From: Paracoccaceae bacterium
GTDB lineage: Bacteria > Pseudomonadota > Alphaproteobacteria > Rhodobacterales > Rhodobacteraceae
Direction of reading: 5' to 3'
DNA: 35,437 nucleotides
Assembly (NCBI GenBank): GCA_006844665.1
Contig: SPJP01000028.1
Location: forward strand, 1-35,437
The translations under genes were made by a program, and so were the position numbers. The notes under the pieces are model-generated. The model was not told the origin of the DNA. It did no database searches and saw only the letters and a program-made list of their open reading frames with translations. Positions 2 to 31,924 of this stretch are shown piece by piece; the first letter of the stretch is position 1; the number at the start of each line of letters is the position of its first letter.

Positions 2-1153
2 GATTGCGCCATGGACGCTTTGTCCGGAAACACGTCTCAGGCCACATTGGGCACGGTCGTGGAATCCCTGGCAGGTCAAGACCGCGACACAGGGCTGGAC
101 ATCAAAGCGATCCGCGAAATCTCGAACTACTGGGAAGCCGCCCGCGCCCATTACGCCGCCTTTGAAAGCGGCCTGCAGGCCCCCGCGTCCGAGGTCTATT
201 TGCACGAAATGCCCGGCGGCCAGTTCACCAACCTAAAGGCCCAAGCCCGGTCCCTGGGGCTAGAAGAACGTTGGCACGAGGTCGCGCAATCCTATGCGGA
301 CGTGAACCAGATGTTCGGCGACATCGTAAAGGTTACGCCCTCGTCCAAAGTGGTCGGCGATATGGCCCTGATGATGGTGTCCCAAAACCTTAGCCGCGCC
401 GATGTGGAAAGCCCTGATACGGATGTGGTCTTTCCAGACAGCGTCATCGACATGATGAAAGGCAGCCTTGGGCAGCCTCCGGGCGGCTGGCCAAAAGCGA
501 TCCAGAAAAAGATCCTGAAGGGCGACAAACCCTCGACCGATCGTCCAGGCCAGCACCTGCCAGCCGTGGATCTGGAAGCCGCGCGAAAGGATCTGTCTGC
601 CCAATTGGACGGCAAAGCCGTGGATGACGAGGACCTGAACGGCTACCTGATGTACCCAAAGGTCTTCCTGGATTACATGGGCCGCCACCGCACCTACGGG
701 CCCGTCCGCGCCCTGCCCACCCGCACGTTCTTCTACGGCATGAACCCGGGCGAGGAAATCGAAGCTGAAATCGACCCCGGCAAAACTCTGGTCATCCGGA
801 TGCAGGCTGTCGCCGATACCAGCGAAGACGGCGAAGCCAAGGTCTTCTTCGAACTAAACGGCCAGCCTCGCGTCATCCGGGTCGCCGACCGCATGGTGAC
901 ATCCTCTACCGTCAAACGCGAAAAAGCCGAGCCCGGCAACCCAGACCATATCGGCGCGCCAATGCCCGGCGTGGTTGCCAGCGTTGCGGTTCAAGCCGGT
1001 CAAAAGGTCAATGAAGGCGATCTGCTTTTGACAATCGAGGCGATGAAAATGGAAACCGGCATCCATGCCGACCGCGACGCCGTGATCAAAGCGGTTCATG
1101 TTGGCGCTGCTGGTCAGATCGATGCAAAAGACCTGCTAATAGAGCTCGAATAG
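2..1153 (+). CDS. pyc: Pyruvate carboxylase, C-terminal part (5' truncated by window edge)
   Basis: Open frame from the window start; C-terminal biotinyl domain with EAMKMETG; 'AMDALSGNTSQ' and the carboxyltransferase tail are typical of pyruvate carboxylase. Confidence 0.93.
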   Translation, partial: DCAMDALSGNTSQATLGTVVESLAGQDRDTGLDIKAIREISNYWEAARAHYAAFESGLQAPASEVYLHEMPGGQFTNLKAQARSLGLEERWHEVAQSYADVNQMFGDIVKVTPSSKVVGDMALMMVSQNLSRADVESPDTDVVFPDSVIDMMKGSLGQPPGGWPKAIQKKILKGDKPSTDRPGQHLPAVDLEAARKDLSAQLDGKAVDDEDLNGYLMYPKVFLDYMGRHRTYGPVRALPTRTFFYGMNPGEEIEAEIDPGKTLVIRMQAVADTSEDGEAKVFFELNGQPRVIRVADRMVTSSTVKREKAEPGNPDHIGAPMPGVVASVAVQAGQKVNEGDLLLTIEAMKMETGIHADRDAVIKAVHVGAAGQIDAKDLLIELE

Positions 1154-1215: not shown

Positions 1216-1418
1216 GCATCCAAAATCCAATAAAGCCACTCGAACGGCAATTACCAACTAAACAAAGCTTTATAGCTTGAAGTGCAATTCTTCTTTACGA
1301 CCCCGGATGCAATCTAACAACCTTTTTGTTTACACTTTCTCGCAAATTTACCTCAACTCTGCCTAGAACCTGCCCCATTTCAACTACATCTTTTGGCGAG
1401 TTTTGTACGAGGTCCGCT

Positions 1419-2123
1419 ATGAGAAGTGATTTTTGGGAAGAGGAATCCGGCGCGGTCACAGTGGATTGGACCGTTATGACTGCATCTATTGTCGGCTTGG
1501 GCATTGCCACCTATGGCGTTGTGACAGGCGGCATCAAGAACCTGTCTGGCGATATTGATCGGAATTTGGAACGCCCATTCGTCCAGACGTCATTCTTGAC
1601 CCCTGACGATTTTTCAAACGGACCCGGATCATGGGTTGGGGTCGGCACGTCGTCCCAGCCTGGGTTTGGCGACGTATTGGGGCCCGTTCAGGGCAACCCG
1701 GACGGTCGCGAAACCTTCTATCAGGATTTCGAGATCCCGGGCGGCGCGATGGAGGTTCAGTTCAACTTTGATCTTCTGTCCTTTGACAGCATCGACGGCC
1801 GTCCCGTCGACAATGGCTGGGGCGCAAATGAAGGTCCGGTCATGTATCTCGACGGCCAAGAAATCGCGCGCGCGGCCTCGGTCGACGGGAACCTAACATG
1901 GACCTATAGCAATGCACCCGGCATCGAAATCGAAAGCACTGTGGTTCAAAGCGACACGCATATCGGTGGCCCAAACCGTTGGTTTCCTGACGGCATAAAC
2001 CAAGTGAACATCAAATTTGACGAACCCGCCGAAAACGTCCGGCTTGGGTTTGGCCTGGCCGCCAACCAGTCGCTCCATGATGAAAGCATGGGCATCGACA
2101 ACTTCACCTTCCAGGCAATGTAA
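1419..2123 (+). CDS. Flp-pilin-like N-terminus fused to a beta-rich C-terminal domain (paralogue 1)
   Basis: The ORF is listed from 1326, but the internal ATG at 1419 gives MRSDFWEEESGAVTVDWTVMTASIVGLGIATYGVVTGGIKNLSGD, which aligns with the starts of the next two genes. Confidence 0.75.
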   Translation: MRSDFWEEESGAVTVDWTVMTASIVGLGIATYGVVTGGIKNLSGDIDRNLERPFVQTSFLTPDDFSNGPGSWVGVGTSSQPGFGDVLGPVQGNPDGRETFYQDFEIPGGAMEVQFNFDLLSFDSIDGRPVDNGWGANEGPVMYLDGQEIARAASVDGNLTWTYSNAPGIEIESTVVQSDTHIGGPNRWFPDGINQVNIKFDEPAENVRLGFGLAANQSLHDESMGIDNFTFQAM

Positions 2124-2171
2124 TCGCCCTAGCCACCGTTCAGCCCGAGACAAGAAAAAAGGAACACTGAA

Positions 2172-2861
2172 ATGATTTCACGTTTTCTAACCGACGAATC
2201 CGGCGCAGTCACCGTTGACTGGACCGTCATGACAGCCTCCATCGTCGGCTTGGGCATTGCGACCTATGGCGTTGTATCCGGCGGCATTCAGAACCTGTCT
2301 GGTGATGTTGACACCCATTTGTCCCAGGACCTGATCAACACCAATTTCTTCGAAGCGATTACCGTTTTGGCGATGGATTTCTCTGGCGGCAACGCAGGCA
2401 ACTGGCAAGGCGGCACCGTCATGGCACCTATCACAGCCTTGGGGGAAATGTTGGTGCTGGGACCAAATGAAAGCGCATCGCTATCATTGGACATTCCAGA
2501 TGGCGCAACATCCGCGACCCTTAGCTTTGATCTGGTCGGCGGCGACAGCTGGGACAATGAAATTGCAACGGTTTCAAGCGACGGTCAGGTGGTTGCAACC
2601 GGCAAGGGCGTTTGGACAACAGGCTCGATGACGTTCACAATCCCCGATGTTGATGGAGTCAGCGTCACCACAGACACCATATCATCTGGCACCAATCTGG
2701 GTGGCAGTGGCCAAACACTCTATAAGGACTCTGTCACGCGGGTTTCCATCACGGTGGACGATCCCGGCGAAACGCTCAACTTGGGCGTTCATTCGGGCAC
2801 AAACCAGGCTGTCTATGACGAGTTTCTGGGGATCGACAACGTAAACGTCACCGCGGAATGA
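2172..2861 (+). CDS. Flp-pilin-like N-terminus fused to a beta-rich C-terminal domain (paralogue 2)
   Basis: MISRFLTDESGAVTVDWTVMTASIVGLGIATYGVVSGGIQNLSGDVD; AAGGA ribosome-binding site upstream; C-terminal LDIPDGATSATLSFDLVGGDSWDNE...FLGIDNVNV. Confidence 0.82.
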   Translation: MISRFLTDESGAVTVDWTVMTASIVGLGIATYGVVSGGIQNLSGDVDTHLSQDLINTNFFEAITVLAMDFSGGNAGNWQGGTVMAPITALGEMLVLGPNESASLSLDIPDGATSATLSFDLVGGDSWDNEIATVSSDGQVVATGKGVWTTGSMTFTIPDVDGVSVTTDTISSGTNLGGSGQTLYKDSVTRVSITVDDPGETLNLGVHSGTNQAVYDEFLGIDNVNVTAE

Positions 2862-2875
2862 CAAGGAACAGCCCA

Positions 2876-3565
2876 ATGCTTTCACATTTTCTATCCGACG
2901 AATCCGGCGCGGTCACCGTAGACTGGACCGTTATGACAGCCTCGATTGTTGGCTTGGGCATCGCCACTTATGGCGTGGTTTCAGGCGGCATCCAGAACCT
3001 GTCGGGCGATGTTGACACGCATCTCTCCCAGGACCTGATCAGCACCAGTTTCTTCGACACCGTTTCCGTCCTGGCAATGGATTTCACCGGCGGCGACGCT
3101 GGCGACTGGCAGGGCGGCACCGTCATGGCCCCTATCGCCGCTTTGGGCGAAATGTTGGTTCTTGGGCCGCAAGAAAGCACGTCCCTCTCCATGGACATCC
3201 CAGACGGCGCGACATCTGCGACCATCAGCTTTGATCTGATCGGCGGCGACAGTTGGGACGACGAGGTTGCAACAATTTCCAGCGATAGCGACGTTGTGGC
3301 CACCGCGGTCGGCAACTGGAGAGCCGGAACAATGACCTTCACCGTTCCCGACGTCGACGGGATAGAGGTCAGCACAACTGTAATTTCTTCTGGCACTGAT
3401 CTAGGTGGCCATCCCTACACAGGCTTCAAAGACACTGTCACCCGGGTCTCGATCACCGTTGATAACCCCGGCGATACCCTGGACTTGGGCGTTTTATCGG
3501 GCACGGGCAGCGGCATTTATGACGAGTTTCTGGGCATAGATAACGTCAGTGTCACAGCGCAATAG
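2876..3565 (+). CDS. Flp-pilin-like N-terminus fused to a beta-rich C-terminal domain (paralogue 3)
   Basis: Close paralogue of the preceding gene; ATG at 2876 (MLSHFLSDESGAVTVDW) with upstream AAGGAA is preferred over the ORF-track start at 2858. Confidence 0.82.
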   Translation: MLSHFLSDESGAVTVDWTVMTASIVGLGIATYGVVSGGIQNLSGDVDTHLSQDLISTSFFDTVSVLAMDFTGGDAGDWQGGTVMAPIAALGEMLVLGPQESTSLSMDIPDGATSATISFDLIGGDSWDDEVATISSDSDVVATAVGNWRAGTMTFTVPDVDGIEVSTTVISSGTDLGGHPYTGFKDTVTRVSITVDNPGDTLDLGVLSGTGSGIYDEFLGIDNVSVTAQ

Positions 3566-3587: not shown

Positions 3588-4499
3588 TTACCGTCCGGGC
3601 AGGTTTGGCCCAAAGCTGGTGTCCGGATCGCCGCTTAGGCATCTTGGGATCACCGGGAAATCTGCCGTCAGCACATAGGCATAGGTGCCTTCGGGGTAAT
3701 CCTCTGTTTCCAGCCACGCGCCATTGCACGCGTCCAGATCACCTGATCCTTCGACATAAACATAGTCTTGAATGAACGCGCCGTCATAGGCCCCCGTGGG
3801 TTCATCCCCACCGGGACGCGTGCCGCTTTGCAGCTGGTAGCTGCTGGTCAATTCCTTCACCTGGCCCCCGATTTCTGCCGTCAGCGCGTAGATCGGAAAC
3901 CCGTCTGACGCCCAGCCGATCAAAGGGGATTCCGCGTCGCTGGACCATCCCAGCTGCTGCATCAACCCAATCGGCAATCCGTGGTAATGATAGGCCCCGG
4001 TTGGTTGGACATGGGCATAGTTGCTGTCCAGCCCCAACGGCACCGCACCGGCCAAAGCCTCGTATTGCCAGCCACTGCTTGGGTCGCCCTTCCAGAACTC
4101 TGCCGCAAGCGGGTCAAACGCCACGCCATTGACCGCAACACCGAACAGTTGGGCCAGCCGAAGGCTCGTTGCGCTGGTCAGCGAGCCCTCGATATCCATC
4201 ATATAGCGGTCATCCTGCGGGCTGATCTGGTTCGGCCCGTTGGAAAAGTCCCCCACCGTATGGGTGGGGATCGCGTTGGCCGTGATGGTCCGCGTATTGC
4301 CGCGCTCGGAAATCGCCACCTCGGCCCCGTTCAACGTCACGGTCGAGGCCGCCAGCGTAATACCCTCGGCCGTCGTGGCCGTATGTTCGCGGAACCGGGG
4401 CTGGCTGAAACCGGCAGCGGCAGAAATCACCGTCAGAACCAGGGCGGCAGCAGTGGCCGCCAGCAAAGAGCGTTTTATCGACATCTTGGTAACTTTCAT
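3588..4499 (-). CDS. YHYH domain-containing secreted protein (copy A)
   Basis: Contains YAHVQPTGAYHYHGLPIGLM and GWASDGFPIYAL; N-terminal signal-peptide-like stretch (MSIKRSLLAATAAALVLTV). Confidence 0.85.
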   Translation of the reverse strand: MKVTKMSIKRSLLAATAAALVLTVISAAAGFSQPRFREHTATTAEGITLAASTVTLNGAEVAISERGNTRTITANAIPTHTVGDFSNGPNQISPQDDRYMMDIEGSLTSATSLRLAQLFGVAVNGVAFDPLAAEFWKGDPSSGWQYEALAGAVPLGLDSNYAHVQPTGAYHYHGLPIGLMQQLGWSSDAESPLIGWASDGFPIYALTAEIGGQVKELTSSYQLQSGTRPGGDEPTGAYDGAFIQDYVYVEGSGDLDACNGAWLETEDYPEGTYAYVLTADFPVIPRCLSGDPDTSFGPNLPGR

Positions 4500-4534: not shown

Positions 4535-5494
4535 CTAAGGACGCCGAGGCCGCGCGCCTCCTATGGGCCGCTGCTTGGCAAAACTGCGGTCCGCCTGCCC
4601 CACATGGCAGCGTGGGATCACAGGGAAACTGTCGGTGATGAAATAGGCATAGGTGCCTTCGGGAAACTCTGCCGTGCGCACGACGGCACCGTTGCACGCA
4701 TCCAAAGACCCGGACCCGGCGACATATTGGTAATCTTGGGTGAATGTGCCGTCATAGCTGCCGGTTGGGCCCGATCCCCCCGGGCGATTGCCCGATTTCA
4801 GCTGATAGGAAGAGGTCATCTTAACCACAGATCCCCCAACCTGAGCCGTCATTGCATAGATCGGGAACCCATCTGCAGCCCAGCCAATCAAGGGCGACGC
4901 TTTGGTGCTGGACCAGCCCAATTGCTGCATCAGCCCAATCGGCAGGCCGTGATAATGGTAGGCCCCAGTGGGCTGCACATGGGCATAGTTCGCATCCAGC
5001 CCCAAGGGGATCGCGCCGCCCAAAGCCTCGTAATTCCAGCCCGACTGGCGGTTGCCCTTCCAGACCTCGGCGGTGCCAGGATCAAACGGCACACCATTCA
5101 CCGCCACCCCGAACAAAAACCGGCCCTGTCTGCGCGCCTGGCCTTGGCGCGGATTTGTCGTCATCTGAAAGCTATAGGACTGCGCCGAAATCCGGTTGGG
5201 ATTGCCAGAGTTCGGGAACCGACCGACCCGGTGGGACGGAATGCCGTTGGATTGAATAACGCGGGTCGATCCCTGAACCCCAACAGCCACCTGAGCCGTC
5301 CCCGCAGCGGAATTGGCCGCAAGCAGCCGCAATGGCTGGGCATCCGTGGCTGTGTGGGCGCGCACAGGCGGGCGCTGCTGGGCGTCGACCAGATGGGGCA
5401 ATCCTGCCGCCAGCCCCATTGCAGCAACCAACAGGGTCACACGCAGATTTGTCGACGGAAATTTACGGGTCTTTGAAGGTACAAGTTTAGACAT
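4535..5494 (-). CDS. YHYH domain-containing secreted protein (copy B)
   Basis: Same motifs as copy A (YAHVQPTGAYHYHGLPIGLMQQLGWSS), N-terminal hydrophobic segment, Arg/Pro-rich C-terminal tail. Confidence 0.85.
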   Translation of the reverse strand: MSKLVPSKTRKFPSTNLRVTLLVAAMGLAAGLPHLVDAQQRPPVRAHTATDAQPLRLLAANSAAGTAQVAVGVQGSTRVIQSNGIPSHRVGRFPNSGNPNRISAQSYSFQMTTNPRQGQARRQGRFLFGVAVNGVPFDPGTAEVWKGNRQSGWNYEALGGAIPLGLDANYAHVQPTGAYHYHGLPIGLMQQLGWSSTKASPLIGWAADGFPIYAMTAQVGGSVVKMTSSYQLKSGNRPGGSGPTGSYDGTFTQDYQYVAGSGSLDACNGAVVRTAEFPEGTYAYFITDSFPVIPRCHVGQADRSFAKQRPIGGARPRRP

Positions 5495-11055: not shown

Positions 11056-12579
11056 CTACATCACCGCGCCAATTTGCCAGGGTACAAATTCGTTATCCCC
11101 CAGACCCAGCGCTTCGGATTTTGTTGTCTGGCCAGAGGCAACAGCAAGAATATGCTGGAAAATTTCTTGGCCTTTATCCGCGATGCCGACCCCCTGGGAC
11201 ACCACATCCCCGGTGTTCAGATCCATGTCATCGGGCATTTTTTCAAACAACTGGTCCGAGGTCGCGACCTTGATTGTCGGGCTGGGCTTTGACCCAAATG
11301 CTGACCCGCGCCCAGTGGTAAACACAACCAATTGTGCCCCCCCAGCGATCTGACCCGTGGCCGAAACCGGATCATAGCCCGGCGTGTCCATAAAGACGAA
11401 GCCAGCAGCCTCGACCTTCTGGCCATAGTCATAAACCGCCGTCAGCGGGGTCGATCCTGCCTTGGCAACTGCGCCCAAGGATTTTTCGAGAATGGTCGTG
11501 ATCCCGCCCTGTTTATTGCCCGGGCTTGGGTTGTTGTCCAAAGACCCGCCATTCATCTGGGCGTAGTTTTCCCACCACTCGATCTGCTCGATCAGCTTGT
11601 TCGCAACATCCGCAGACGCCGCACGGCGCAACAACAATTGCTCTGCGCCGTACACCTCGGGTGTTTCCGACAGGATCGCCGTACCCCCTTGGGCCACGAT
11701 CAAATCGCTGGCGATCCCCAAAGCCGGGTTAGCCGTGATCGAGGAAAACCCATCCGAGCCGCCACATTGCAAACCAATCCGCAGTGCTGACACTGGCTGA
11801 GGGCTGCGTTTGGATTGGTTGACCGAAGGCAGGATCGACCGGACATGGTTCTTGATCGCCTCAATCGTTGCGCGCGTGCCGCCGGTGTCTTGGATCGTCA
11901 ATGCGTGGAACCGGTCCGTGCCCATATCCCCAAATTGCGCCTTCATCCGCGCGATTTGCATCACCTCGCAGCCCAGACCAACAATGATAGCAGCACCCAC
12001 ATTGGGATGGGTCGCGTGGCCCCACAAAACCCGGTCCAGAATGTCATAGCCGCGCCCGCTGGCCGCCATGCCACATCCCGTTCCATGGGCCAGGGCCACC
12101 ACCCCATCAACATCAGGGTAGTCGTCCAACAGGCCCGAAAGCTCGAGCTCGGACGCCGCGCGTTTGATCACCGTGGCCGAGCAGTTCACCGTGGCCACAA
12201 GCGCGATATAGTTTCGTGTGCCCACGCGCCCGTCCCCCCGCGCGTAGCCCTGAAATGTCAGCGGAGCAGCGTTCGGAATTGCCTGTTGGGCCAGCGCCAG
12301 ATCAGCACCAATCGCATAATCCTTGGCCGGGTTCGAGAACGCGCAGTTTTGGCTGTGCACATGCTCGCCTGCCTTTATGTCAGCGGTCGCTGTTCCAATG
12401 AACTGACCAAACTTAACCACCGGCTGCCCCGTGGCAATCTGCACGCGGGCGATCTTGTGGCCGGCGGACACAGGCGCAGGCAAGACCACGCCCAGACCCA
12501 AGGGGTCATCCCCTTGCACCGCCCGTTCTGTCACCACGGCGACGTTATCATTCGGATGGAGGATCAAGGGTTCAAACAT
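11056..12579 (-). CDS. uxaA: Altronate dehydratase (fused SAF + UxaA domains)
   Basis: MFEPLILHPNDNVAVVTERAV...; GYARGDGRVGTRNYIALVATVNCSATV; GLQCGGSDGFSSITANPALG; GFVFMDTPGYDPVSATGQIAGGAQLVVFTTGRGSAFGSKPSPTIKVA. Confidence 0.92.
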   Translation of the reverse strand: MFEPLILHPNDNVAVVTERAVQGDDPLGLGVVLPAPVSAGHKIARVQIATGQPVVKFGQFIGTATADIKAGEHVHSQNCAFSNPAKDYAIGADLALAQQAIPNAAPLTFQGYARGDGRVGTRNYIALVATVNCSATVIKRAASELELSGLLDDYPDVDGVVALAHGTGCGMAASGRGYDILDRVLWGHATHPNVGAAIIVGLGCEVMQIARMKAQFGDMGTDRFHALTIQDTGGTRATIEAIKNHVRSILPSVNQSKRSPQPVSALRIGLQCGGSDGFSSITANPALGIASDLIVAQGGTAILSETPEVYGAEQLLLRRAASADVANKLIEQIEWWENYAQMNGGSLDNNPSPGNKQGGITTILEKSLGAVAKAGSTPLTAVYDYGQKVEAAGFVFMDTPGYDPVSATGQIAGGAQLVVFTTGRGSAFGSKPSPTIKVATSDQLFEKMPDDMDLNTGDVVSQGVGIADKGQEIFQHILAVASGQTTKSEALGLGDNEFVPWQIGAVM

Positions 12580-13744
12580 GGGATAGGCCTTTGATAACGC
12601 CACGAATTTCTGCCAAACCTCGCATCCGGCCAATCAGGGGATAGCCGGGGATCAGGTCCCGGTCCAAATCTGACAGCATGTGATGGCCGTGATCAGGCCG
12701 GAACGGGATTTCAAAGGACGGCTCGCCCGCCGCTTGCCGTTTGGATTGCGCGTCCAACAAGACTTTGATCAAGGCAACCATATCCGTATCGCCACCCAAA
12801 TGCTCGGCCTCTTCAAAGGATCCGTCGGGGTCTTTGTGCACATTGCGCAGATGGGCGAAATGGATGCGATCTGCCAGCTTTTCGGCAATTGCAACCACAT
12901 CATTGGCCGGGTTCGCCCCAAGCGAGCCTGAACACAAAGTCACCCCATTAGACGGGCTATCGTAGGCCGCCATAATCCAATCCAGATCGTCGCCGTTCGA
13001 CACAATCCGCGGCAAGCCCAGGATATCGCGGGGCGGGTCATCGGGATGGACGCAAAACTGCATGCCCAGCTCTTCGGCCGTTGGGACTACCTCTTGCAAG
13101 AAACGGCGATAGTTTTGCCGCAACGCGTCGCGATCAATCCCTTCATAGGTCTTTAAAACCGTGCGCAGCCCATCAACATCGTAGCGATCAAACGCACCGG
13201 GCAGGCCTGCCATGATGCTGGCCAACAGGGCGTCACGCTCGGCATCGGTGGAGCGTTGGAACCACGCCCCCGCCTTGGCCAGAACCTCGGTTGAATATTC
13301 AGCTTCTGCTTCATGACGGCCCAGCATGTGAACCTCGAACGCGGCCATGCGTACAGCATCAAACCGCAGGCAGGTCGCGCCGCTTGTGACAGGCGCGGCC
13401 AGATCGGTTCTTGTCCAGTCCAGCAACGGCATGAAGTTGTAGCAGATCGTCTTCACGCCATTTTCGGCCAAATTCGCCATGGATTGCCGGTAGTTGGCGA
13501 ACAAAGGGTCCAAGTCCCCTGACCCGGTTTTGATCCGTTCGTGCACCGGCAGGCTTTCGACAACAGTCCAGCCAAAGCCTGCCTCTGTGATCTGGGCTTT
13601 TCTGGCCGCAATCGCATCTGTCGGCCACACCTGGCCGTAGGGAATTTCATGCAGAGCGGTTACAATGTCCTGCGCACCGGTCTGGCGAATTTCCGCCAGC
13701 GAGATAGGATCATACCCGCCATACCAGCGCCAATTCTCTCTCAT
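12572..13744 (-). CDS. uxuA: Mannonate dehydratase
   Basis: MRENWRWYGGYDPISLAEIRQTGAQDIVTALHEIPYGQVWP; HPDDPPRDILGLPRIVSNGDD; FRPDHGHHMLSDL. Confidence 0.95.
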   Translation of the reverse strand: MRENWRWYGGYDPISLAEIRQTGAQDIVTALHEIPYGQVWPTDAIAARKAQITEAGFGWTVVESLPVHERIKTGSGDLDPLFANYRQSMANLAENGVKTICYNFMPLLDWTRTDLAAPVTSGATCLRFDAVRMAAFEVHMLGRHEAEAEYSTEVLAKAGAWFQRSTDAERDALLASIMAGLPGAFDRYDVDGLRTVLKTYEGIDRDALRQNYRRFLQEVVPTAEELGMQFCVHPDDPPRDILGLPRIVSNGDDLDWIMAAYDSPSNGVTLCSGSLGANPANDVVAIAEKLADRIHFAHLRNVHKDPDGSFEEAEHLGGDTDMVALIKVLLDAQSKRQAAGEPSFEIPFRPDHGHHMLSDLDRDLIPGYPLIGRMRGLAEIRGVIKGLSHV

Positions 13745-15183
13745 GCCATTGTTCGCTTTTCGATGGCAGCCCGCACGCCCAGGGCCCAGATGTCTTCTGC
13801 GGCTTCGGTCACGGGGTCCTGCAATTTACCTGCCAGATCAGCCGGGAAAATCTCGCGGATTGAAAGAAGGGCTGCGACCTTGGCTTGGGGCGTGTCGGCG
13901 GCATCAGACAAGGCGGCCAAGTTATCGGCCATCGGGTCTTTCACCTCGATCGGGTTGCCACTTTCGTCCACGGCCCCGACGTAGCGCATCCAAGCGGCCA
14001 CGGCCAAACACAGCATCGGCGCGCTTTGGCCCGCTTCGAACGTGTCGCGCAATGTTCCCAACAAGCGCTGCGGCAATTTCTGGCTGCCATCCATCGCGAT
14101 CTGCCATGTCCGGTGGCGGATATTCCCGTTGGCGTAGCGATCAAACAATGCATCCGCATAAGATCCCAAGTCCACCCCAGGCGGGGGCGTCACGGTTGGC
14201 AAAATCTCGGCCCATAGCGCGCGGGCAAAGGTGCCAAAAACAGGGTCGCCAACGGTTTGGGCAATCGTTTCGTGCCCGGCCAAATACCCGGAATAGGCCA
14301 AGGCGGAATGGGTGCCGTTTAACATACGCAGCTTCATGTCTTCATGGGCGCTGACATTGGCGACCAGTTCGGCCCCGGCGGCGGCGAAATCTGGGCGCTG
14401 TCCGCCCACGAAATCATCCTCGATCGCCCATTGAGAAAACGGCTCGTGCATCACGGGGGCCGCATCGTGATACCCTGTTAAAGCCTGCACAGTGGCGATG
14501 TCATCTGCCGTGGTTGCCGGGGTGATCCGGTCGACCATTGTGCAAGGGAACCGGCCGAAATCCTTGATCCACTGGGCCAGATCCGGGTCAATCAAACCCG
14601 CCAATTCCAGCACCAGACCCTGAACCAGGCGCCCGTTGTCAGGCAGGTTATCGCAGGTCAGAATGGTAAAAGGGGGACGGCCCAATGCCCGGCGCATTTG
14701 CAAAGCGCGGACCAAGTAGCCAAGGGCAGATACCGGCACGTCATGGGCCAGGTCATGCTGAATATCGGGATGGTCCGCGTTCAGGCGACCGGTCGCAGGG
14801 TGGTGGCAATAGCCCTTCTCGGTCACGGTCAAAGACACGATCTTGACCGAGGCTGCGGCCATCGCATCCAAAACGGCTTGGGGGTTCTCGGGCGCGACCA
14901 ACACGTCATTCAAAACCTCGATCGCCCGAGGCGTTGCCCCCGTGGGGTCCAAGGAAACTGACGTATAGGCCCAGTCCTGATCTTGTAGCGCGTCGCGCGT
15001 TGTCGCACTGCGCAAGGAAACCCCGACAATCCCCCAATCGCCCCCAGACGCCTGCATCGCATCCGCGACATACACGCAGCCAAAGGCCCGAAAAAAGGCC
15101 CCTAGGCCCAAATGCACGATACCAGTGTTCGGTCGATCAGCGGTTTGTCTTTTCAAACGATTAGCGGGCAAGCCAGCCTCCAT
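13741..15183 (-). CDS. uxuB: Mannitol dehydrogenase family oxidoreductase, probable fructuronate reductase
   Basis: IVHLGLGAFFRAFGCVYVADAM, LTCDNLPDNGRLVQGLVLELA, MKLRMLNGTHSALAYSGYLAG; 4-nt overlap with uxuA. Confidence 0.88.
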   Translation of the reverse strand: MEAGLPANRLKRQTADRPNTGIVHLGLGAFFRAFGCVYVADAMQASGGDWGIVGVSLRSATTRDALQDQDWAYTSVSLDPTGATPRAIEVLNDVLVAPENPQAVLDAMAAASVKIVSLTVTEKGYCHHPATGRLNADHPDIQHDLAHDVPVSALGYLVRALQMRRALGRPPFTILTCDNLPDNGRLVQGLVLELAGLIDPDLAQWIKDFGRFPCTMVDRITPATTADDIATVQALTGYHDAAPVMHEPFSQWAIEDDFVGGQRPDFAAAGAELVANVSAHEDMKLRMLNGTHSALAYSGYLAGHETIAQTVGDPVFGTFARALWAEILPTVTPPPGVDLGSYADALFDRYANGNIRHRTWQIAMDGSQKLPQRLLGTLRDTFEAGQSAPMLCLAVAAWMRYVGAVDESGNPIEVKDPMADNLAALSDAADTPQAKVAALLSIREIFPADLAGKLQDPVTEAAEDIWALGVRAAIEKRTMA

Positions 15184-15904
15184 CTACGTTAAGTGTTGCA
15201 CCGTGGATGTAGCCAGCAGCAGGTGTGCACAGATAAACCGCCGCCCCTGCAATGTCCGAGGCTTGGCCCCAGCGCCCCGCCGGGATGCGTTCCAGAATAG
15301 CAGCGTTGCGGTCAGGATCCGCCCGTAAGGCTTCGGTGTTTTTTGTTTCGATATATCCGGGGGCAACCGCGTTTACGTTGATGCCTTTTTCCGCCCATTC
15401 ATTGGCCAGCAATTTGGTTAGACCGGCCACCCCGTGTTTGGCGGCTGTGTAAGACGGCACCCGGATGCCGCCCTGAAAAGACAGCAAAGACGCGATATTG
15501 ACGACAGCGCCGCCGCGCCCGGCGCGAAGTGCTTCGCGAGCAAAAGCTTGGGTTGTAAAGAACAGGGCCTTCAGGTTCACATCCATCACCGCGTCCCAGT
15601 CTTCTTCGGTGAAATCTACCGCGTCGGCACGCCGGATAATGCCCGCATTGTTGATCAGAATGTCGATGTCTTGTCCGGCAAACAAAGTTTGCCCCGCCAT
15701 GGGGTCAGCGAAATCCACCAAAATGGACGAGGCCGTGCCCCCCGCTGCTGTGATCAAATCAATCGTATGATCGCTGGCCCGGCGCCCTGCGCACAAAACC
15801 TCGGCCCCGGCCTGGGACAGCCCGACAGCAATAGCCTGACCAATGCCTGAGTTTGCGCCCGTGACCAATGCCCGGCGACCTGTCAGCGAAAAATGGTTGC
15901 TCAC
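15161..15904 (-). CDS. kduD: SDR family 2-dehydro-3-deoxy-D-gluconate 5-dehydrogenase (KduD-like)
   Basis: GTG start at 15904 (VSNHFSLTGRRALVTGANSGIGQAIAVGLSQAGAEVLCAGR), YTAAKHGVAGLTKLLANEWAEKGINVNAVAPGYIETKNTEAL; GTGA overlap with the kduI stop. Confidence 0.87.
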   Translation of the reverse strand: MSNHFSLTGRRALVTGANSGIGQAIAVGLSQAGAEVLCAGRRASDHTIDLITAAGGTASSILVDFADPMAGQTLFAGQDIDILINNAGIIRRADAVDFTEEDWDAVMDVNLKALFFTTQAFAREALRAGRGGAVVNIASLLSFQGGIRVPSYTAAKHGVAGLTKLLANEWAEKGINVNAVAPGYIETKNTEALRADPDRNAAILERIPAGRWGQASDIAGAAVYLCTPAAGYIHGATLNVDGGWLAR

Positions 15905-16725
15905 CGCAAATCCTCCATCGCGACCATGTCCATATCCGTGAAATCCACGTTGTCGCCAGCCATAGCCCAGCAAAACGTATAGGATGCCGTTCCGGCCCCG
16001 AAATGGATCGACCACGGCGGCGAAATCACGGCTTGCTCGTTCGCCATGACAATGTGGCGAGTTTGATCCGGCGCGCCCATCATGTGAAAAACACGCTGGT
16101 CTGCGGGCAGTTCAAAATACAGGTAAGCCTCCATCCGGCGGTCATGGACATGGGCGGGCATTGTGTTCCAGACAGAGCCCTCTGCGAACTGAGTGTACCC
16201 CATCAACAATTGGCAGCTTTGGCAGACCTCTGGATGCAAGAACTGGATGATCACCCGTTCGTTCGCGGTTTCGCGCGCGCCCATTTCAACCCGGCGCGCA
16301 TCGGCCAGTTTGATCAGCGTTGTTGGATAGCCGCGATGGGCAGGGGCTGACAAAATGTAGAACCGGCCAGCGCCCGAAAAGGTAATCGGACCCGCGCCCA
16401 TGCCAACATACAAAACCTCGCCATTTTCCAGGCTATAGGTTACGTCCCCGACAGACACGCTGCCTGCAGCGCCAATATTCAGCACGGCCATTTCCCGCCG
16501 GTCCAAGAAGCCTTCTGTCCCGGTTTCGGACATCGACCGTAGGGTCAAGGGCGCGTTTGTAGGCACGGCAGACCCAAGGATCATTCGATCATAGTGACTG
16601 TAGACCAGATTGATCTCGTCCTCGGCAAACAATCCTGCCACGTGAAAATGCTCGCGCAGTTTTTCGGTGTCGAACGTCTTGGCCGTCGCCGGATCAATCG
16701 CGTAGCGGGTTTCTGTTTTCAGCAT
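15901..16725 (-). CDS. kduI: 5-dehydro-4-deoxy-D-glucuronate isomerase
   Basis: YAIDPATAKTFDTEKLREHFHVAGLF, HVHDRRMEAYLYFELPADQRVFHMMGAPDQTRHIVMANEQAVISPPWSIHFGAGTASYTFCWAMAGDN. Confidence 0.96.
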   Translation of the reverse strand: MLKTETRYAIDPATAKTFDTEKLREHFHVAGLFAEDEINLVYSHYDRMILGSAVPTNAPLTLRSMSETGTEGFLDRREMAVLNIGAAGSVSVGDVTYSLENGEVLYVGMGAGPITFSGAGRFYILSAPAHRGYPTTLIKLADARRVEMGARETANERVIIQFLHPEVCQSCQLLMGYTQFAEGSVWNTMPAHVHDRRMEAYLYFELPADQRVFHMMGAPDQTRHIVMANEQAVISPPWSIHFGAGTASYTFCWAMAGDNVDFTDMDMVAMEDLR

Positions 16726-16741
16726 CAATTAGTCCCTCTGA

Positions 16742-16894
16742 TCACGGTGCCGCTACGCGGGTTGATCGAAGATGGCTGGGCAACCGACCCTCGGCCCCAG
16801 ATTGGGACCGAGAGGCGATGACCATCAGCTTGGGATCTGTCGCCAAGATTTGGCGTGCGACCCCGGTATCTACGACAGCTTCACGACAGGACAT
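16742..16894 (-). pseudogene. Truncated/degraded KdgF-like cupin remnant
   Basis: 50-codon ORF (below the ORF-track cutoff): MSCREAVVDTGVARQILATDPKLMVIASRSQSGAEGRLPSHLRSTRVAAP*; resembles the KdgF N-terminal pattern GVxRxILxxDPxLMxVxxxxxxGAEGxxHSHPH, then stops. Confidence 0.5.
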
Positions 16895-16904
16895 AACAGG
16901 ATCC

Positions 16905-18185
16905 CTAGTGAAACAGCGAAGGCAGCCACAAAGACAGCGCTGGAATATATGTCACCAGCAACAACGTCGCGAAGCCTGCGCCATAAAAGGGCCAGATCGT
17001 CCGTACTGCGTCCCAGATGGGGACCCGACCCACAGCGCAGCCAACAAAGAGAACCGCGCCAACAGGTGGGGTACACAGGCCAATGCCAAGGTTCAGGATC
17101 AAGATGACCCCGAAGTGGACAGGATCGACACCAAAGGCCGTTGCGACAGGCAAGAAAATGGGCGTGGTGATGACGATCAGGGGCGACATGTCCATGAACG
17201 TGCCCAGCACCAGCAACAAAAGGTTCAGCAGCAACAGAATGATGATCGGATTGTCCGACACATTTTGAAGCGCGGCAACCAAGGTCGCAGGCACTTTGGT
17301 ATAGGCTAGAAGCCAGCCAAATGCAGCCGCACAGCCAATTACCATCAGCACCATTGCGGTGGTCCGCACGGCAGCAAAGGTGGCTTCGACAAACTCGCCA
17401 AACGACAGAGTTTTGTAGACAAAGAACGTCACAAGAAGCGCGTAGACAACGGCGATATTGGAGGATTCTGACGCGGTAAAGATACCGGACCGGACGCCAA
17501 AGAAGATGATCGCAACAAGGATCAAGCCCGGTGCGGCGCTGATGAAAAGCGAACCGACCATACGAAAGCCGGGGAAACGCTCTGTCGGGTAGCCGCGCTT
17601 AGAGGCGACGAACCACGCGACGATCATCAAGGACAGCGCAAGGATAAAGCCCGGGATGATACCGGCAGTAAACAAGTCGGCAATAGAAATGCGCCCGCCT
17701 GCCGCGATAGAGTAAATGATCATGTTGTGCGACGGCGGCAGCATCAGTGCAATAATCGATGATGTGACCGTAATATTCACCGCATAATCAGCGCCGTAGC
17801 CGCGTTCCTTCATCTGAGGAACCATCAAGCCGCCGACAGCCGACGCATCCGCAGCAGCAGATCCTGACACACCGCCAAACATGACCGATGAAATGATGTT
17901 CACTTGGCCCAGACCGCCGCGCAAGTGCCCGACAAGCGCCCCTGCAAGCCCAACAAGTCGTCGGGCAATATCGCCCCGGACCATCAGATCGCCCGCGAAG
18001 ATAAAGAACGGGATCGCCATCAGCGAGAAGACCGAAACACCCGAATTGAGACGTTGGAAAACCACGACCGGCGGCAAGCCCAGATAGGCGATTGTCGCAA
18101 AGCTGGCGACGCCAAGGCAGAAGGCAACGGGCGTGCCGATAAGAAGAAGGAACACAAATGTCCCGAAGAGGATATAAAGTTCCAT
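16905..18185 (-). CDS. TRAP transporter large permease (DctM)
   Basis: FVFLLLIGTPVAFCLGVAS, FGGVSGSAAADASAVGGLMVPQMKERGYGADYAVNITVTSSIIALMLPPSHNMIIYS; probable hexuronate importer from context. Confidence 0.95.
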   Translation of the reverse strand: MELYILFGTFVFLLLIGTPVAFCLGVASFATIAYLGLPPVVVFQRLNSGVSVFSLMAIPFFIFAGDLMVRGDIARRLVGLAGALVGHLRGGLGQVNIISSVMFGGVSGSAAADASAVGGLMVPQMKERGYGADYAVNITVTSSIIALMLPPSHNMIIYSIAAGGRISIADLFTAGIIPGFILALSLMIVAWFVASKRGYPTERFPGFRMVGSLFISAAPGLILVAIIFFGVRSGIFTASESSNIAVVYALLVTFFVYKTLSFGEFVEATFAAVRTTAMVLMVIGCAAAFGWLLAYTKVPATLVAALQNVSDNPIIILLLLNLLLLVLGTFMDMSPLIVITTPIFLPVATAFGVDPVHFGVILILNLGIGLCTPPVGAVLFVGCAVGRVPIWDAVRTIWPFYGAGFATLLLVTYIPALSLWLPSLFH

Positions 18186-18707
18186 TTAAGTATCCAATGG
18201 GTCTTCGCCAAACCGCGCCGTGCGCAATCCAGCGGCGCGCCGTAGCACGCGCTCAAGTGAAAAGAGGACGATAAGAACGCCGCCAGCAACGAGCGGGGCA
18301 AAATCCCACGCACCCGAAATACCAAGCGACGGAAGCTTGTTTCCGGCGGTCTTTACGCCAAGCTGCCAGCCATACCAGATCATACCAAAGCCAAAGGCCC
18401 CAACAGCAAGATCCGAAATCGAATGCAGCACGACCTTGACCCGGTCCGGCAAAACATAAAGCAAGATGTCGAAGGACAGGTGGTAGCCTTCCCGGATGCC
18501 AACGGCGGCCCCCAAAAAGATGAACCACCCCATGATCATAACAGAGGCGGGCTCGGTCCAGACAATACTGTCATTGAGCACATAGCGCCAGAAAACTTGG
18601 GCGGCGATGATGGCCGTCATGATGACCAATCCCGTCCCTGCTATCCAAAGCGAAATCCGGGCCAGTACCCCGGTGCTTCGCGCTGAACGCTCCATAAAGC
18701 TTTTCAC
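18186..18707 (-). CDS. TRAP transporter small permease (DctQ)
   Basis: 4-TM ORF; likely GTG start at 18707 after GGGAGG; abuts DctM. Confidence 0.88.
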   Translation of the reverse strand: MKSFMERSARSTGVLARISLWIAGTGLVIMTAIIAAQVFWRYVLNDSIVWTEPASVMIMGWFIFLGAAVGIREGYHLSFDILLYVLPDRVKVVLHSISDLAVGAFGFGMIWYGWQLGVKTAGNKLPSLGISGAWDFAPLVAGGVLIVLFSLERVLRRAAGLRTARFGEDPLDT

Positions 18708-18732
18708 CTTGGGCCCTCCCCCTTTTAGAAAA

Positions 18733-18763
18733 TGCGCCCCGCACCAGAAAGGAACGGGGCGCA
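18733..18763 (-). other. Intercistronic stem-loop between dctP and dctQ
   Basis: tgcgccccg / cggggcgca arms; on the minus strand followed by ATTTTCT. Confidence 0.6.
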
Positions 18764-18785
18764 AAATAAGCTTGTCTAGTTTAGA

Positions 18786-19760
18786 TTATTCTACGGCCTG
18801 GATGCGCGCGACAAGGTCGATCAGCTCAGGAGACGTGATGTATTTTTCATAGACAGGAACCATTGCGTCGATGAATGGCTGCTTGTCGATGTCTGTGATG
18901 ACCTCGGAACCTGCGTCACGCACCAGCTGCTCGGATGCTGCTTCACGTGCGATCCAACGCTCGCGCATCAGCGGAACAGAGTCTTTCGCGGCCTGACGAA
19001 CGATGGCCTGATCTTCCGCGCTCAGAGCCTCAAAAGAGGACTTCGCCATAACCAGAACTTCTGGAACGATCAGGTGCTGGTCCAATGTGTAGTACTTGGC
19101 AACTTCGTAATGGCCAGTGCTTTCGTAGGAAGGCCAGTTGTTTTCAGCACCGTCGATGACGCCAGTCTGGATGCCGGAGTACACTTCACCGAATGGCATA
19201 GGCGTCGCGTTCGCGCCCAGGGCCGCAACCATGTCAACGAACAGGTCAGACTGCTGAACGCGGAACTTCATGCCAGCCAGATCAGCCATGGATTCGATAG
19301 GCTTCTGAGAGTTGTAGAAGCTACGTGCGCCACTGTCGTAGAACGCCAGGCCGACAAGATCATGTGCAGAGAAGGATTCAAGGATCTCATCACCGATTTC
19401 ACCATCCATGACAGTGTTCATGTGCTCGACCGAACGGAAGATGTACGGCAGGGACGGAACCTGAGTTTCAGGAATGATGTTGTTGAATGGTCCAAGGCTT
19501 ACGCGGTTCATGTCGATCACACCGAACTGAGTCTGCTCGATTGTGTCTTTTTCTTCGCCAAGCTGCGCAGAGTGGAATACTTCGATGCAGAGACGGCCAT
19601 CGGTCCGCTCTTCCAGCATTTCACCCATCAGCTGAACCGCAACAACAGTTGGGTAACCTTCAGAATGTGTATCAGACGAACGCAGAGTTGTCTCACAGGC
19701 GAAAGACGCAGAAGCAAGTACAGTACCCGCCAGAAGCGCCGAAACGAAAGTTTTAGTCAT
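18786..19760 (-). CDS. TRAP transporter substrate-binding protein (DctP)
   Basis: Signal peptide [21 protein letters not shown]; ...[55 protein letters not shown] ribosome-binding site. Confidence 0.95.
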
Positions 19761-19782
19761 GGTTTCCTCCCAGAAATGGCTC

Positions 19783-21189
19783 TCAGAGCCGATAAGCCTG
19801 CTTCGCAAGCCGGTAAGTAAGGTCATAAGCGACCTCGTTTGCCTCATCCTCAGCCAGCCGCCCCGTAGCGACCAGCCCAGCCAAAAATGAGCAATCCACC
19901 CTGCGCGCCACGTCGTGACGAGCAGGTATAGAACAGAATGCGCGGGTGTCATCATTGAACCCGACGGTGTTGTAGAAGCCGGCCGTTTCCGTCGCGGCCT
20001 CGCGGAACCGGAGCATGCCTTCCGCGCTGTCATGGAACCACCAAGGTGGGCCCAGCTTTAGGGCAGGATAGACACCTGCCAATGGGGCCAGCTCTCGGGA
20101 ATAGGTGCTCTCATCCAAGGTGAATAGGATGATGGTCAAATTGGGCTCTCGGCCGACGGCATTCAGCAATGGCTTTAGCGCCGACACGTAATCTGTGCGC
20201 GTTGGAATATCGTAACCTTTGTCCCGTCCGAACTGAGCCATGACATGATCATTGTGATTGCGCGAAGATCCCGGGTGGATTTGCAAAACCAGCCCGTCTT
20301 CCAGGCTCATCCGCGCCATTTCCGTCAGCATATGGCCGCGAAACCCGTCTGCTTCGTCCGGGGTGCAGATACCCGCCAGCGCCTTGGCAAATAGTTTCGC
20401 CGCATATTCCTGGGAATAATCTTCTGTCCGCGCTGTTGGATGACCGTGGTCCGAAGACGTGGCCCCAAAGCTTTTGAAAAAGGCACGGCGATTGCGGTGG
20501 GCGGCCAAATAGCCGGTCCATGTTGTAGCATCCTCGCCTGCCAGCGCGCCCATTTGTTCGACATTGGCGGCAAACCCATCGAAATCCGGGTCAACCACTG
20601 CGTCGGGTCGGTAGGCAGTGACCACCTTGCCAGACCAGCCGCTGTCTTTGATCATCTTGTGCCAGCGCAGATCGTCCAGCGCGCTTTCCGTGGTCGAGAT
20701 CGCTTCGATATTGAACTGCTCGAACAAAGCACGGGGCAAGAAGGCCTCTTGCGTCAGACAATCTGCAATTTTGTCATAAATCATATCGCCGGTTTCGGCG
20801 CTAAGTGGGGTTGTCACACCAAAGACGGTCTGCAGCGCGTGGTCCACCCAAATACGCGAAGGGGTGCCCCGGAACAGATGGTAATTGGCGGCAAACAGGT
20901 TCCAGATCTTTCGCGGATCCTGTTCTGTTTCGCCGCCATCAATCCGAGGAACGCCCATGGCTTCCAACGGAATGCCCTGGCTGTGCAACATCCGAAAAAC
21001 ATAGTGATCAGGGGTGACGAACAGCTCTGCCGGATTCGCGAATGCTTTGTTTTCAGCAAACCAGCGCGGGTCTGTATGGCCATGGGGGCTGATGATCGGC
21101 AAGTCGCAGACCGAACTATACAGCTGTCTGGCCAGGTCCCTCACGGTGGGTTCCACCGGAAAAAGCCGATCCTCGTTTAATAGTGCCAT
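19783..21189 (-). CDS. uxaC: Glucuronate isomerase
   Basis: [73 protein letters not shown]...; whole-length UxaC pattern. Confidence 0.96.
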
Positions 21190-21236
21190 GCGGCCTCCCC
21201 TTTCCCCCTGCCAATGTCGACGACTCGCCGACCTGA

Positions 21237-21254
21237 CAACTAATAACCTAGATG
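21237..21254. promoter_or_regulatory. Candidate GntR(FCD) operator, copy 1
   Basis: CAACTAATAACCTAGATG: inverted-repeat arms CAACTA/TAGATG (one mismatch), repeated 34 bp downstream. Confidence 0.6.
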
Positions 21255-21270
21255 CCACCAAATACAATGT

Positions 21271-21288
21271 CAACTAATAACCTAGTTG
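21271..21288. promoter_or_regulatory. Candidate GntR(FCD) operator, copy 2
   Basis: CAACTAATAACCTAGTTG: perfect 6-bp arms CAACTA/TAGTTG. Confidence 0.65.
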
Positions 21289-21351
21289 CGAGACAATTCA
21301 GTTTGGCCTACACTGATCTGAACAAAACCAACCAACTGAGGGAGAGCTCTC

Positions 21352-22077
21352 GTGAACAATACCGTTCTGCGTCCAGGCAAAGACTTGCCACTTTCTCAGC
21401 TCAAGCCAATATCGCCCCCCACAGTGGCCGATCACGTTTTTACAGAGCTGCACACAAGCATCCTGTCCCTGGCCCTGCCCCCGCAAAGCAAAATCTCTGA
21501 AACCGAGGTTGCAAAGACGATGGGGGTGTCCCGGCAACCTGTGCGCGAAGCCTTCAAACGCCTTGCGAAACTTGGGTTCCTGGTGATCCGCCCCCAAAGC
21601 AGCACAACGGTTAGCCTGATCTCGGAAGAGGCAGTCATGCGGGCGCGATTCATTCGGATTGCGCTGGAAATTCAGACCTGCCGCACCGCCTGCGCAGAAA
21701 TGAACACGTCAGACGTCGCGGCGCTGAAATCATTGCTGGAACAACAGCGCCTTGCGGTGGCTGCCAATGACCCCATCGCCTTTCACACCCTGGACGATCA
21801 GTTCCACCGCGAAATCTGTATGCGGTCCGGGTTGGATTACGTCTGGGACCTGATTCACGAAAGCAAGGGCCATATGGATCGCATCAGGATGCTGTCTTTG
21901 ACCTCCAGCTCTCAGCGCATCGCGCTTGAGGAACACATCGTCCTGGTCAACGCGATCGAGGCAAAAGACGCCGACGCTGCGTCAGCCGCGATCAACGCCC
22001 ATCTTAGCCGGATCGTTGTTTTGATTGAGCAGATGAAAACTGAAAACCACGATTGGTTCACGGAAGAATCCCTATGA
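21352..22077 (+). CDS. GntR family transcriptional regulator, FCD-type (hexuronate regulator)
   Basis: wHTH PTVADHVFTELHTSILSLALPPQSKISETEVAKTMGVSRQPVREAFKRLAKLGFLVIRPQSSTTV and FCD domain; GTG start after GGGAGAG. Confidence 0.93.
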   Translation: MNNTVLRPGKDLPLSQLKPISPPTVADHVFTELHTSILSLALPPQSKISETEVAKTMGVSRQPVREAFKRLAKLGFLVIRPQSSTTVSLISEEAVMRARFIRIALEIQTCRTACAEMNTSDVAALKSLLEQQRLAVAANDPIAFHTLDDQFHREICMRSGLDYVWDLIHESKGHMDRIRMLSLTSSSQRIALEEHIVLVNAIEAKDADAASAAINAHLSRIVVLIEQMKTENHDWFTEESL

Positions 22078-22994
22078 CACGCATTGTTTCAATCGGTGAA
22101 GCGATGGTTGAAATGGCCCCAAATGGCCAGGCAGGCATGTTTCAACGGGGGTTTGCTGGCGACACAATGAACACCGCTTGGTATCTGCGAAAACTGCTGC
22201 CCGAAACGGATCAGGTCGACTATCTGACCGCCGTCGGCACAGACGCAATATCCGAGCAGATGCTTGGCTTTCTGTCCCAGGCCCAGATTGGCACCGATTG
22301 CGTTTTACGCAGGTCTGACCGGACTATTGGCCTTTATATGATCCAGCTTTCGAACGGCGAACGCAGCTTTAGCTATTGGCGCGGGCAAAGTGCTGCCCGC
22401 ACCCTTGCCGACGACCCCCAAGCGCTGGCCAAGGCGCTGACGGGGGCCGATATCGCCTTTTTCTCGGGCATTACCATCGCGATTCTGCCAGCACCCCAGC
22501 GCGCCGAATTGCTGCAGGTTCTAAAAGAGTTTCGCGCAAATGGTGGACAGGTTGTGTTCGATCCAAACTTGCGCCCGCGCCTGTGGGACAGCGGGGCGCA
22601 AATGACCGAAGCCGTTATGCAAGCAGCCCAAGTCAGCGATATGGTCTTGCCCTCGCACGAGGACGAGGCCGACTGGTTCGGCGATAAGGACACAGAACAC
22701 ACCGCCAAGCGCTACCAAAATGCAGGCGCGCGCACGGTCATTGTCAAGAACGGCGCCGATGCGATGCTGGCACTGCATGACGGCGTTATCAGCCACCACC
22801 CCAGTGTAAAAGCCGCACAAGTCGTTGATACCACTGCAGCAGGTGACAGCTTTAACGCTGGTTTTTTGGCGGCCCTGCAGGCCGGGCAATCATTGGACAG
22901 CGCCATCAAAGCAGGCGCAACTTTGGCCGTAAACGTCATCCAAGCGCGCGGCGCTTTGATCTGGCCTGTAGAAGAGACGCTTTTGGTTTCCTAA
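22074..22994 (+). CDS. kdgK: 2-dehydro-3-deoxygluconokinase (PfkB family)
   Basis: MTRIVSIGEAMVEMAPNGQ...GFAGDTMNTAWYLRKLL..., VDTTAAGDSFNAGFLAAL; ATGA overlap with the regulator gene. Confidence 0.93.
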   Translation: MTRIVSIGEAMVEMAPNGQAGMFQRGFAGDTMNTAWYLRKLLPETDQVDYLTAVGTDAISEQMLGFLSQAQIGTDCVLRRSDRTIGLYMIQLSNGERSFSYWRGQSAARTLADDPQALAKALTGADIAFFSGITIAILPAPQRAELLQVLKEFRANGGQVVFDPNLRPRLWDSGAQMTEAVMQAAQVSDMVLPSHEDEADWFGDKDTEHTAKRYQNAGARTVIVKNGADAMLALHDGVISHHPSVKAAQVVDTTAAGDSFNAGFLAALQAGQSLDSAIKAGATLAVNVIQARGALIWPVEETLLVS

Positions 22995-23049
22995 AATTGC
23001 CATCAGCTGGGACATAGATCACGGCTACCTTGCGTTCCCAACGGGCTTG

Positions 23050-24264: not shown

Positions 24265-24316
24265 TTTCAGTCCTTGTGTGCGCATGCAGAACGAATGCCG
24301 ACGCGACCTTATATTC

Positions 24317-25405: not shown

Positions 25406-25407
25406 GA

Positions 25408-28400: not shown

Positions 28401-28572
28401 CTTCCGCGGTCATCACGTCTTCGCAATAGTGCCAGTTCGCCGCAAAAGTCACGGGCAGCAGGATCTTTTCGCGTAGATCTTCGCACAAGCGCAGCAGCTT
28501 GCCTTCAAGCTTTTCATCGTCGCGCTTCAGGCCCAAACGGGCGGCAATCGGGTTTCTGTATACTTCACCCAT
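25408..28572 (-). CDS. Glycoside hydrolase family 38 alpha-mannosidase
   Basis: [85 protein letters not shown]. Confidence 0.95.
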
Positions 28573-28593
28573 GGGTCGTCTCCTGTATTGGGG

Positions 28594-30299: not shown

Positions 30300-30326
30300 G
30301 GGGATGCTCCTGGTTGGCAGAAGGGA

Positions 30327-30356
30327 CCGGCTGGCCTGACGCACCAGGCCAGCCGG
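30327..30356 (-). other. Intercistronic stem-loop between substrate-binding protein and permease genes
   Basis: ccggctggcct-gacgcacc-aggccagccgg, 11-bp perfect arms, no T tract. Confidence 0.7.
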
Positions 30357-30366
30357 ATCATTGCAA

Positions 30367-31686: not shown

Positions 31687-31753
31687 GTTTTCCTCCCAAA
31701 AAACGCACCATCCAGCGGTGCCACTGACAAAACGCTAGCCGGATGGAATCATT

Positions 31754-31769
31754 ATTGCAACGTTGCAAT
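31754..31769. promoter_or_regulatory. Candidate LacI-family operator O1
   Basis: ATTGCAACGTTGCAAT, perfect 16-bp palindrome with central CG. Confidence 0.75.
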
Positions 31770-31860
31770 TTTAAAAAATCCGGAAAAACTCGCCAAGTTC
31801 ACGCTACTTCCCTGTAAATAAATGATTAAAAAATTGGCAAAAGTGAAACTGCCTCAAAAA

Positions 31861-31876
31861 TTTGCAACGATGCATT
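31861..31876. promoter_or_regulatory. Candidate LacI-family operator O2 (imperfect)
   Basis: TTTGCAACGATGCATT, 3 mismatches to O1, upstream of the lacI-type gene. Confidence 0.5.
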
Positions 31877-31924
31877 TTTGCGTGCTATGTGTAATACAAT
31901 CAAGGACATCAAAGGGGGTTTTGC

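Follow-up and report, generated by a model that had tools for sequence, protein, structure and literature searches.

In current descriptions, Tad pili are built of minimal pilins that lack a head, and functions are added at the tip only. PilB and PilC of Streptococcus sanguinis consist of a small pilin module, a short linker and an extra module, the grafted, ligand-binding part being a vWA or a concanavalin-like lectin domain displayed on the filament, and such grafted modules are highly diverse (PMC8179133, PMC9934059). These proteins belong to the type IVa-like pilins of the N-methyl kind (IPR012902). The survey of modular pilins, which lists 264 architectures, employed an IPR012902 search only and does not mention Flp/Tad pilins (PMC8179133). 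KilLMN of Myxococcus, TadEFG and Caulobacter CpaL customise Tad pili by variable exposed domains, in some cases as paralogous sets within a genome (PMC12075869, PMC13170226), CpaL carrying a vWA domain (PMC13170226); the tips concerned are TadE/F/G-type minor pilins, present as dimers or trimers. Caulobacter PilA has a leader, a Gly cleavage site, Ala at +1, an acidic residue at +5, an aromatic residue at +6 and a single amphipathic helix, and Tad pilins are described as being without a globular beta-sheet domain (PMC11067988).

The window analysed here, i.e. the whole stretch of 35,437 nucleotides from a Paracoccaceae bacterium, contains an array of three tandem genes at 1419-3565, where the original prediction had placed them; the open reading frames lie on the + strand. 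The encoded proteins share with PilB/PilC the arrangement of pilin module, linker and extra module, but their carrier is a minimal, otherwise headless Flp/Tad pilin. They likewise resemble the variable Tad tips in bringing variable, presumably exposed domains to a Tad-type subunit in paralogous sets, but the heads stand directly on Flp-type N-termini. In the leader and the start of the helix they follow PilA, except that Asp-Trp replaces Glu-Tyr and that a C-terminal region of about 180 residues has been added. We found no report of headed Flp pilins in the open-licence papers searched.

All three genes encode head-bearing Flp/Tad-type pilins: gene 1 (1419..2123, 234 residues) and gene 3 (2876..3565, 229 residues), as judged from the reading frames and alignment with relatives, and gene 2 (2172..2861, 229 residues), for which an AlphaFold2 model was additionally obtained. 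An AAGGA or GAGG-like ribosome site lies 6-9 nucleotides 5' of each start used, the likely sites read from the sequence being GAGG at 1409..1412 for gene 1 and AAGGA at 2159..2163 and 2863..2867 for genes 2 and 3, all on the + strand; the last of these favours the start of gene 3 at 2876 over a possible alternative at 2858. A scan of the array for promoters and terminators performed no better than on shuffled sequences, and the only long stem that it gave (1182-1213) is 3' of the upstream gene and was reported on the - strand.

Each protein begins with an 11-residue leader ending in ESG and continues with the stretch AVTVDWTVMTASIVGLGIATYGVV and a head that is about 170-180 residues long; a single hydrophobic helix and the motif ESG-AVTVDW (the hyphen marking the predicted cut) are common to all three. 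The leaders, MRSDFWEEESG (1419..1451), MISRFLTDESG (2172..2204) and MLSHFLSDESG (2876..2908), are each predicted to be cut after G11, as indicated by residue conservation and by their register with canonical Flp. Over the first 47 residues genes 2 and 3 are identical at 44 positions and genes 1 and 3 at 39, and full-length identity is 46% for gene 1 and 77% between genes 2 and 3; the likeness among the three genes is not due to chance. For genes 2 and 3, dN/dS counts of 0.041/0.56 (N-terminus) and 0.19/1.1 (head) reveal that both parts of the pair are under purifying selection.

The proposal that the N-terminus is homologous to Flp pilins is borne out by profile-profile alignment. The short proteins that carry the same module in related genomes align with canonical Flp such that the cleavage sites are in register (hhalign, 96.5%, E 9e-10), the headed proteins align with canonical Flp at E 2.5e-6, and headed and short forms align with each other at E 4.5e-24. 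Among 124 distinct relatives, conservation is strongest around the predicted cut and at the start of the helix (G-1 99%, A+1 97%, D+5 99%, W+6 94%), positions that correspond to Ala15 and the Glu19/Tyr20 core pair of the Caulobacter Tad pilin (PMC11067988). The general layout of Flp pilins, G-XXXX(E/D)(Y/W) plus one hydrophobic helix, is present in the window proteins as G-AVTVDW, and in gene 2 the pilin helix (AVTVDW..., residues 12-50, 2205..2321) is marked by the conservation of D+5 and W+6 and by a modelled helix at residues 13-50, of low pLDDT. Profile comparison thus places the module within the Tad/Flp pilin superfamily. The window proteins score below threshold against Pfam Flp_Fap (PF04964); since no PF04964 match rises above the cut-off and the homology is seen at the profile-profile level, the module is best described as a divergent branch of Flp and not as a PF04964 member. 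Pfam, NCBIfam and PHROGs gave sub-threshold matches only, mainly to DUF4244 at the N-terminus, and none of these libraries names the three proteins, which speaks against the array being an already annotated family. Neither one of the proteins nor the 17-row profile, searched against PDB sequences, returned a match, the short-pilin profile gave no meaningful PDB match, and scans with the TadE/TadF/TadG families PF07811 and PF13400 gave no match to the window proteins. The predicted mature proteins, at about 218-223 residues, are far longer than headless Flp/Tad pilins, at about 45-60 residues.

The module occurs in 165 of 199 Rhodobacteraceae genomes, mostly as proteins of 60-80 residues and often in tandem, and the tad gene product RcpC/CpaB in 169. 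Both are present in 163 genomes and neither in 28, with the module alone in two (the present, fragmented genome and one other) and RcpC alone in six; the Fisher p-value for this co-occurrence, 5e-26, is overstated since the genomes are related. Where both the module and the rcpC lists gave positions (50 genomes), a short copy lies about 0.6-2.5 kb from rcpC in 44, and in a genome of the same genus (G035) two short pilins are directly 5' of cpaB and a secretin gene. The window's own headed genes show no linkage to tad genes. Canonical Flp_Fap was detected at E<=0.01 in only 33 of the 199 genomes, of which 13 have it above the cut-off. Of the six RcpC-positive genomes that have no module, five carry Flp_Fap above cut-off, which indicates that the module stands in for Flp and that the short form has largely replaced the canonical Flp pilin in Rhodobacteraceae. 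Within a sample of 289 Alphaproteobacteria, strong matches to the short-pilin profile (60-107 bits) are confined to this family; of the weak ones outside it, the two inspected (L141 and L143) are ordinary Flp pilins such as DESGATAIEYGLIA. The N-terminus that the original prediction had called Flp-like is not an isolated look-alike: throughout the family, the module is the type of pilin found at tad loci. Some copies are not linked to tad genes, as illustrated by short Asp-Trp pilins on Sulfitobacter plasmids (L129 14001-14195, L130 12001-12189; annotated 'hypothetical protein'), which adjoin exopolysaccharide genes (Pel, glycosyltransferase) and not tad genes. Contig C110 of the present assembly likewise has a solitary short pilin of the family (L145 1003-1215, - strand) that is remote from tad genes, its neighbour being an SMR-type transporter gene.

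With no tad machinery in the window, the array had been expected to act in trans, and the same assembly does encode that machinery: contig C239 carries a TadZ-like ParA, TadA (T2SSE), TadB, TadC, a TPR TadD-like protein and an A24 peptidase. The last is the sole A24 prepilin peptidase gene of the assembly, and its presence removes the objection that a genome without such an enzyme would have raised. A headless short pilin lies at the edge of contig C131, beside CoA-transferase genes that also flank the pilins in G035. No RcpC, TadE or TadG was found in the assembly (83% complete, 280 contigs; TadE/TadG families at E<=0.01); TadE is present in four other genomes with headed pilins.

The beta-rich, lectin- or jelly-roll-like head that had been proposed is supported by modelling. 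AlphaFold2, supplied with a 17-row alignment of the window proteins and relatives, predicts for gene 2, beyond the low-confidence helix, a weak linker and an all-beta sandwich head at residues 61-229 (2352..2858), with 128 residues at pLDDT >=90 and the head mostly at about 90 or above. A pilin module, a short linker and a separately folding head, the layout of modular pilins, are thus predicted for the window proteins. The heads of gene 1 (1584..2120) and gene 3 (3056..3562), which we assign to the same class, A, match the head profile at 184.8 and 212.3 bits, scores to be read in the knowledge that each sequence is itself one row of that profile. Foldseek gave 15 PDB matches at E<=1e-3, mostly carbohydrate-binding modules (CBMs) and glycosidase modules, headed by CBM16, CBM27, a porphyran-binding module and CBM6, with CBM61, CBM4, CBM35, the gingipain K2/K3 adhesin domains and meprin following. 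The best match (CBM16, CBM27) has E 3.3e-4 at a probability of 1.00; TM-scores to the CBMs are modest, at about 0.4 (TMq 0.3-0.4), sequence identity to the CBM and gingipain domains is 10-17%, and no sequence-family match of the head to CBMs or gingipain adhesin domains was found. We therefore describe the head as a predicted beta-sandwich that resembles carbohydrate-binding modules and gingipain adhesin domains.

The head profile matches 12 of the 199 genomes. In five the head is on the pilin module, and in the other seven it occurs without it, inside open frames of 627-2148 residues; two of these frames were scanned and contain RTX repeats and Hint_2 domains, one of them also PA14. Its occurrence in such proteins indicates that the head is an independent module of secreted proteins and, along with the fold, suggests that it most likely binds a carbohydrate or glycoprotein surface, e.g. 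an algal or biofilm polysaccharide. A search of viral contigs with the head gave no relative, and there is thus no sign of phage origin; the viral Foldseek matches of the head are mostly unnamed or phage structural proteins and were left out of account. Class A heads also occur on another N-terminus, short and hydrophobic (GFKIDWSLVVVGVM...), which lacks ESGA (L127 2721-3434 and L128 2371-3099, both - strand), and the ESGA-less protein in genome G086 adjoins a headed pilin; these are possibly degenerate pilins or plain anchors.

By their sequences, the three array genes are members of a larger genomic set in which interchangeable heads are borne by the same carrier. Roughly ten more copies of the module occur in the genome, and several of them bear heads of unrelated kinds. 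Contigs C27 (where a second copy runs off the contig) and C21 have class A heads, C162 has three DUF642-like or CBM-like heads in a row (family matches below cut-off), C153 a Laminin_B head (53 bits against a cut-off of 22.4) and C223 an unassigned one. A Laminin_B-headed pilin is also found in Jannaschia sp. Os4; in two genomes, Laminin_B scores above the Pfam cut-off. At least two further head classes occur in relatives, one that the sequence suggests is alpha-helical and one, 'LIYQASDF', the model of which is of moderate confidence and has no PDB match. In Roseicyclus and relatives (L071, L080, L084, L086, L088-L090), the same carrier bears apparently alpha-helical heads of about 100 residues (...QRNIVDD..LDYYFGF...). 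The collected proteins fall into two groups by mature length, of about 40-80 and about 190-260 residues; the loci were chosen for having heads, and counts of head classes are not frequencies.

The array is preceded by the C-terminal part of a pyruvate carboxylase gene (11..1153, + strand), which is not part of the pilin. A pyruvate carboxylase 70-80% identical to it was found by tblastn immediately 5' of headed arrays in eight other assemblies, including those of Nioella nitratireducens and Jannaschia sp. Os4; two of the eight, both metagenome-assembled genomes (L056, L057), are near-identical in the array region. A marine, algal setting of the array may be inferred from its named relatives and from the link of tad genes to algal-bloom Rhodobacterales (PMC8383342). 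Convergent with the array are tandem genes for YHYH-domain proteins (3588-4499 and 4535-5494, both - strand; PF14240, 206 and 214 bits). By eye, the stretches at about 11059-23000 and 23053-35236 comprise a sugar-acid catabolism region, with mannonate dehydratase-like, uronate isomerase-like and TRAP transporter genes, together with sugar ABC transporter, large mannosidase-like and GH4-like genes, a content that would be in keeping with the degradation of polysaccharides as a way of life. A contig labelled uncultured Paraglaciecola (L060), which is probably a mis-binned Rhodobacteraceae contig, has a headed pilin gene with a disrupted frame and 67% identity to gene 2.

Those elements of the original prediction that can be computed have all been upheld. 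From the computed properties, i.e. the N-terminal homology, the tad linkage in the family, the presence of machinery and peptidase, and the fold class and diversity of the heads, we infer cleavage, incorporation, position in the filament, ligand and adhesion as follows. TadV, the Tad prepilin peptidase, would cut the 11-residue leader after Gly11, and the mature protein would then start with a helix (Ala+1...Asp+5-Trp+6) like those that make up the core of Flp pili. The headed subunits would next be inserted by the Tad motor encoded elsewhere in the genome, probably either in low numbers between the short headless pilins or at the tip, and the beta-sandwich head of about 170 residues would be displayed outside the cell. 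In the Caulobacter Tad pilus the mature N-terminus is directed toward the fibre core and the C-terminus outward (PMC11067988), and a C-terminal head would be exposed because of this orientation. It is likely, in our judgement, that the array genes encode modular Tad pilins of this type, which after processing by TadV become part of the Flp pilus alongside its other subunits and there display exchangeable adhesin heads.

The same helix would also serve as an anchor, and class A heads on a short hydrophobic anchor without the ESGA motif do exist in G086 and G145, as would be expected were the proteins uncleaved type II signal-anchor proteins of the inner membrane, with the head periplasmic or shed after proteolysis. 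However, the best-conserved residues of the module (G-1, A+1 and D+5) are those of prepilin cleavage and filament packing, none of which a plain anchor needs, and nor does it need a module common to tad-locus pilins; we regard this reading as unlikely. Quite improbable, too, is a role as pseudopilins, in which the headed subunits prime pilus assembly or push cargo and are not adhesins. TadE/F/G-like minor pilins prime Tad pili (PMC12075869), and TadE was not found in the present assembly, but the four relatives mentioned above have TadE in addition to headed pilins, the headed genes are outside the tad locus, and a head fold that differs between paralogues suits ligand binding better than conserved priming. 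The variable tips of the Kil pili of Myxococcus select prey (PMC12075869), a precedent for heads that act as phage- or bacterium-directed decoys or as contact-killing tips. Those tips are, however, TadEFG-like and not Flp-type, whereas the heads described here resemble carbohydrate-binding and adhesin domains, and no effector or toxin-like domain was detected in the window proteins with Pfam, NCBIfam or PHROGs, such that decoys or killing tips seem very improbable indeed.

The adhesive modular-pilin reading can be extended, more tentatively and with somewhat less than an even chance of being correct, to one Tad pilus as a general display scaffold. The genome would supply some ten Flp-type subunits, or more, whose heads are unrelated to one another (CBM-like, Laminin_B, DUF642-like and others); co-polymerised along the shaft with headless pilins, these would let a single fibre present a combinatorial set of lectins that can be exchanged. 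The Asp-Trp pilin, which is unannotated, would on this view be specific to the family and take the place of the Glu-Tyr Flp.

Both modular pilins (PMC8179133) and variable Tad tips (PMC12075869, PMC13170226) are already known; what appears to be new is that heads are grafted straight onto subunits of Flp type and form a multigene repertoire. The results also present an Asp-Trp version of the Glu-Tyr pair that is said to be conserved across Tad pilins. For most tad loci in Rhodobacteraceae they point to the likely pilin, a 'hypothetical protein' in the two plasmid records inspected. If Flp-type subunits do carry whole adhesin domains, Tad pili would be customisable by plain gene fusion, and standard searches (Flp_Fap, IPR012902) would overlook such pilins. 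The Rhodobacteraceae are major partners of marine algae, and the proposed arrangement, if true, would provide a testable basis for the choice of surfaces by members of this family, in which one adhesive pilus could grip many surfaces.
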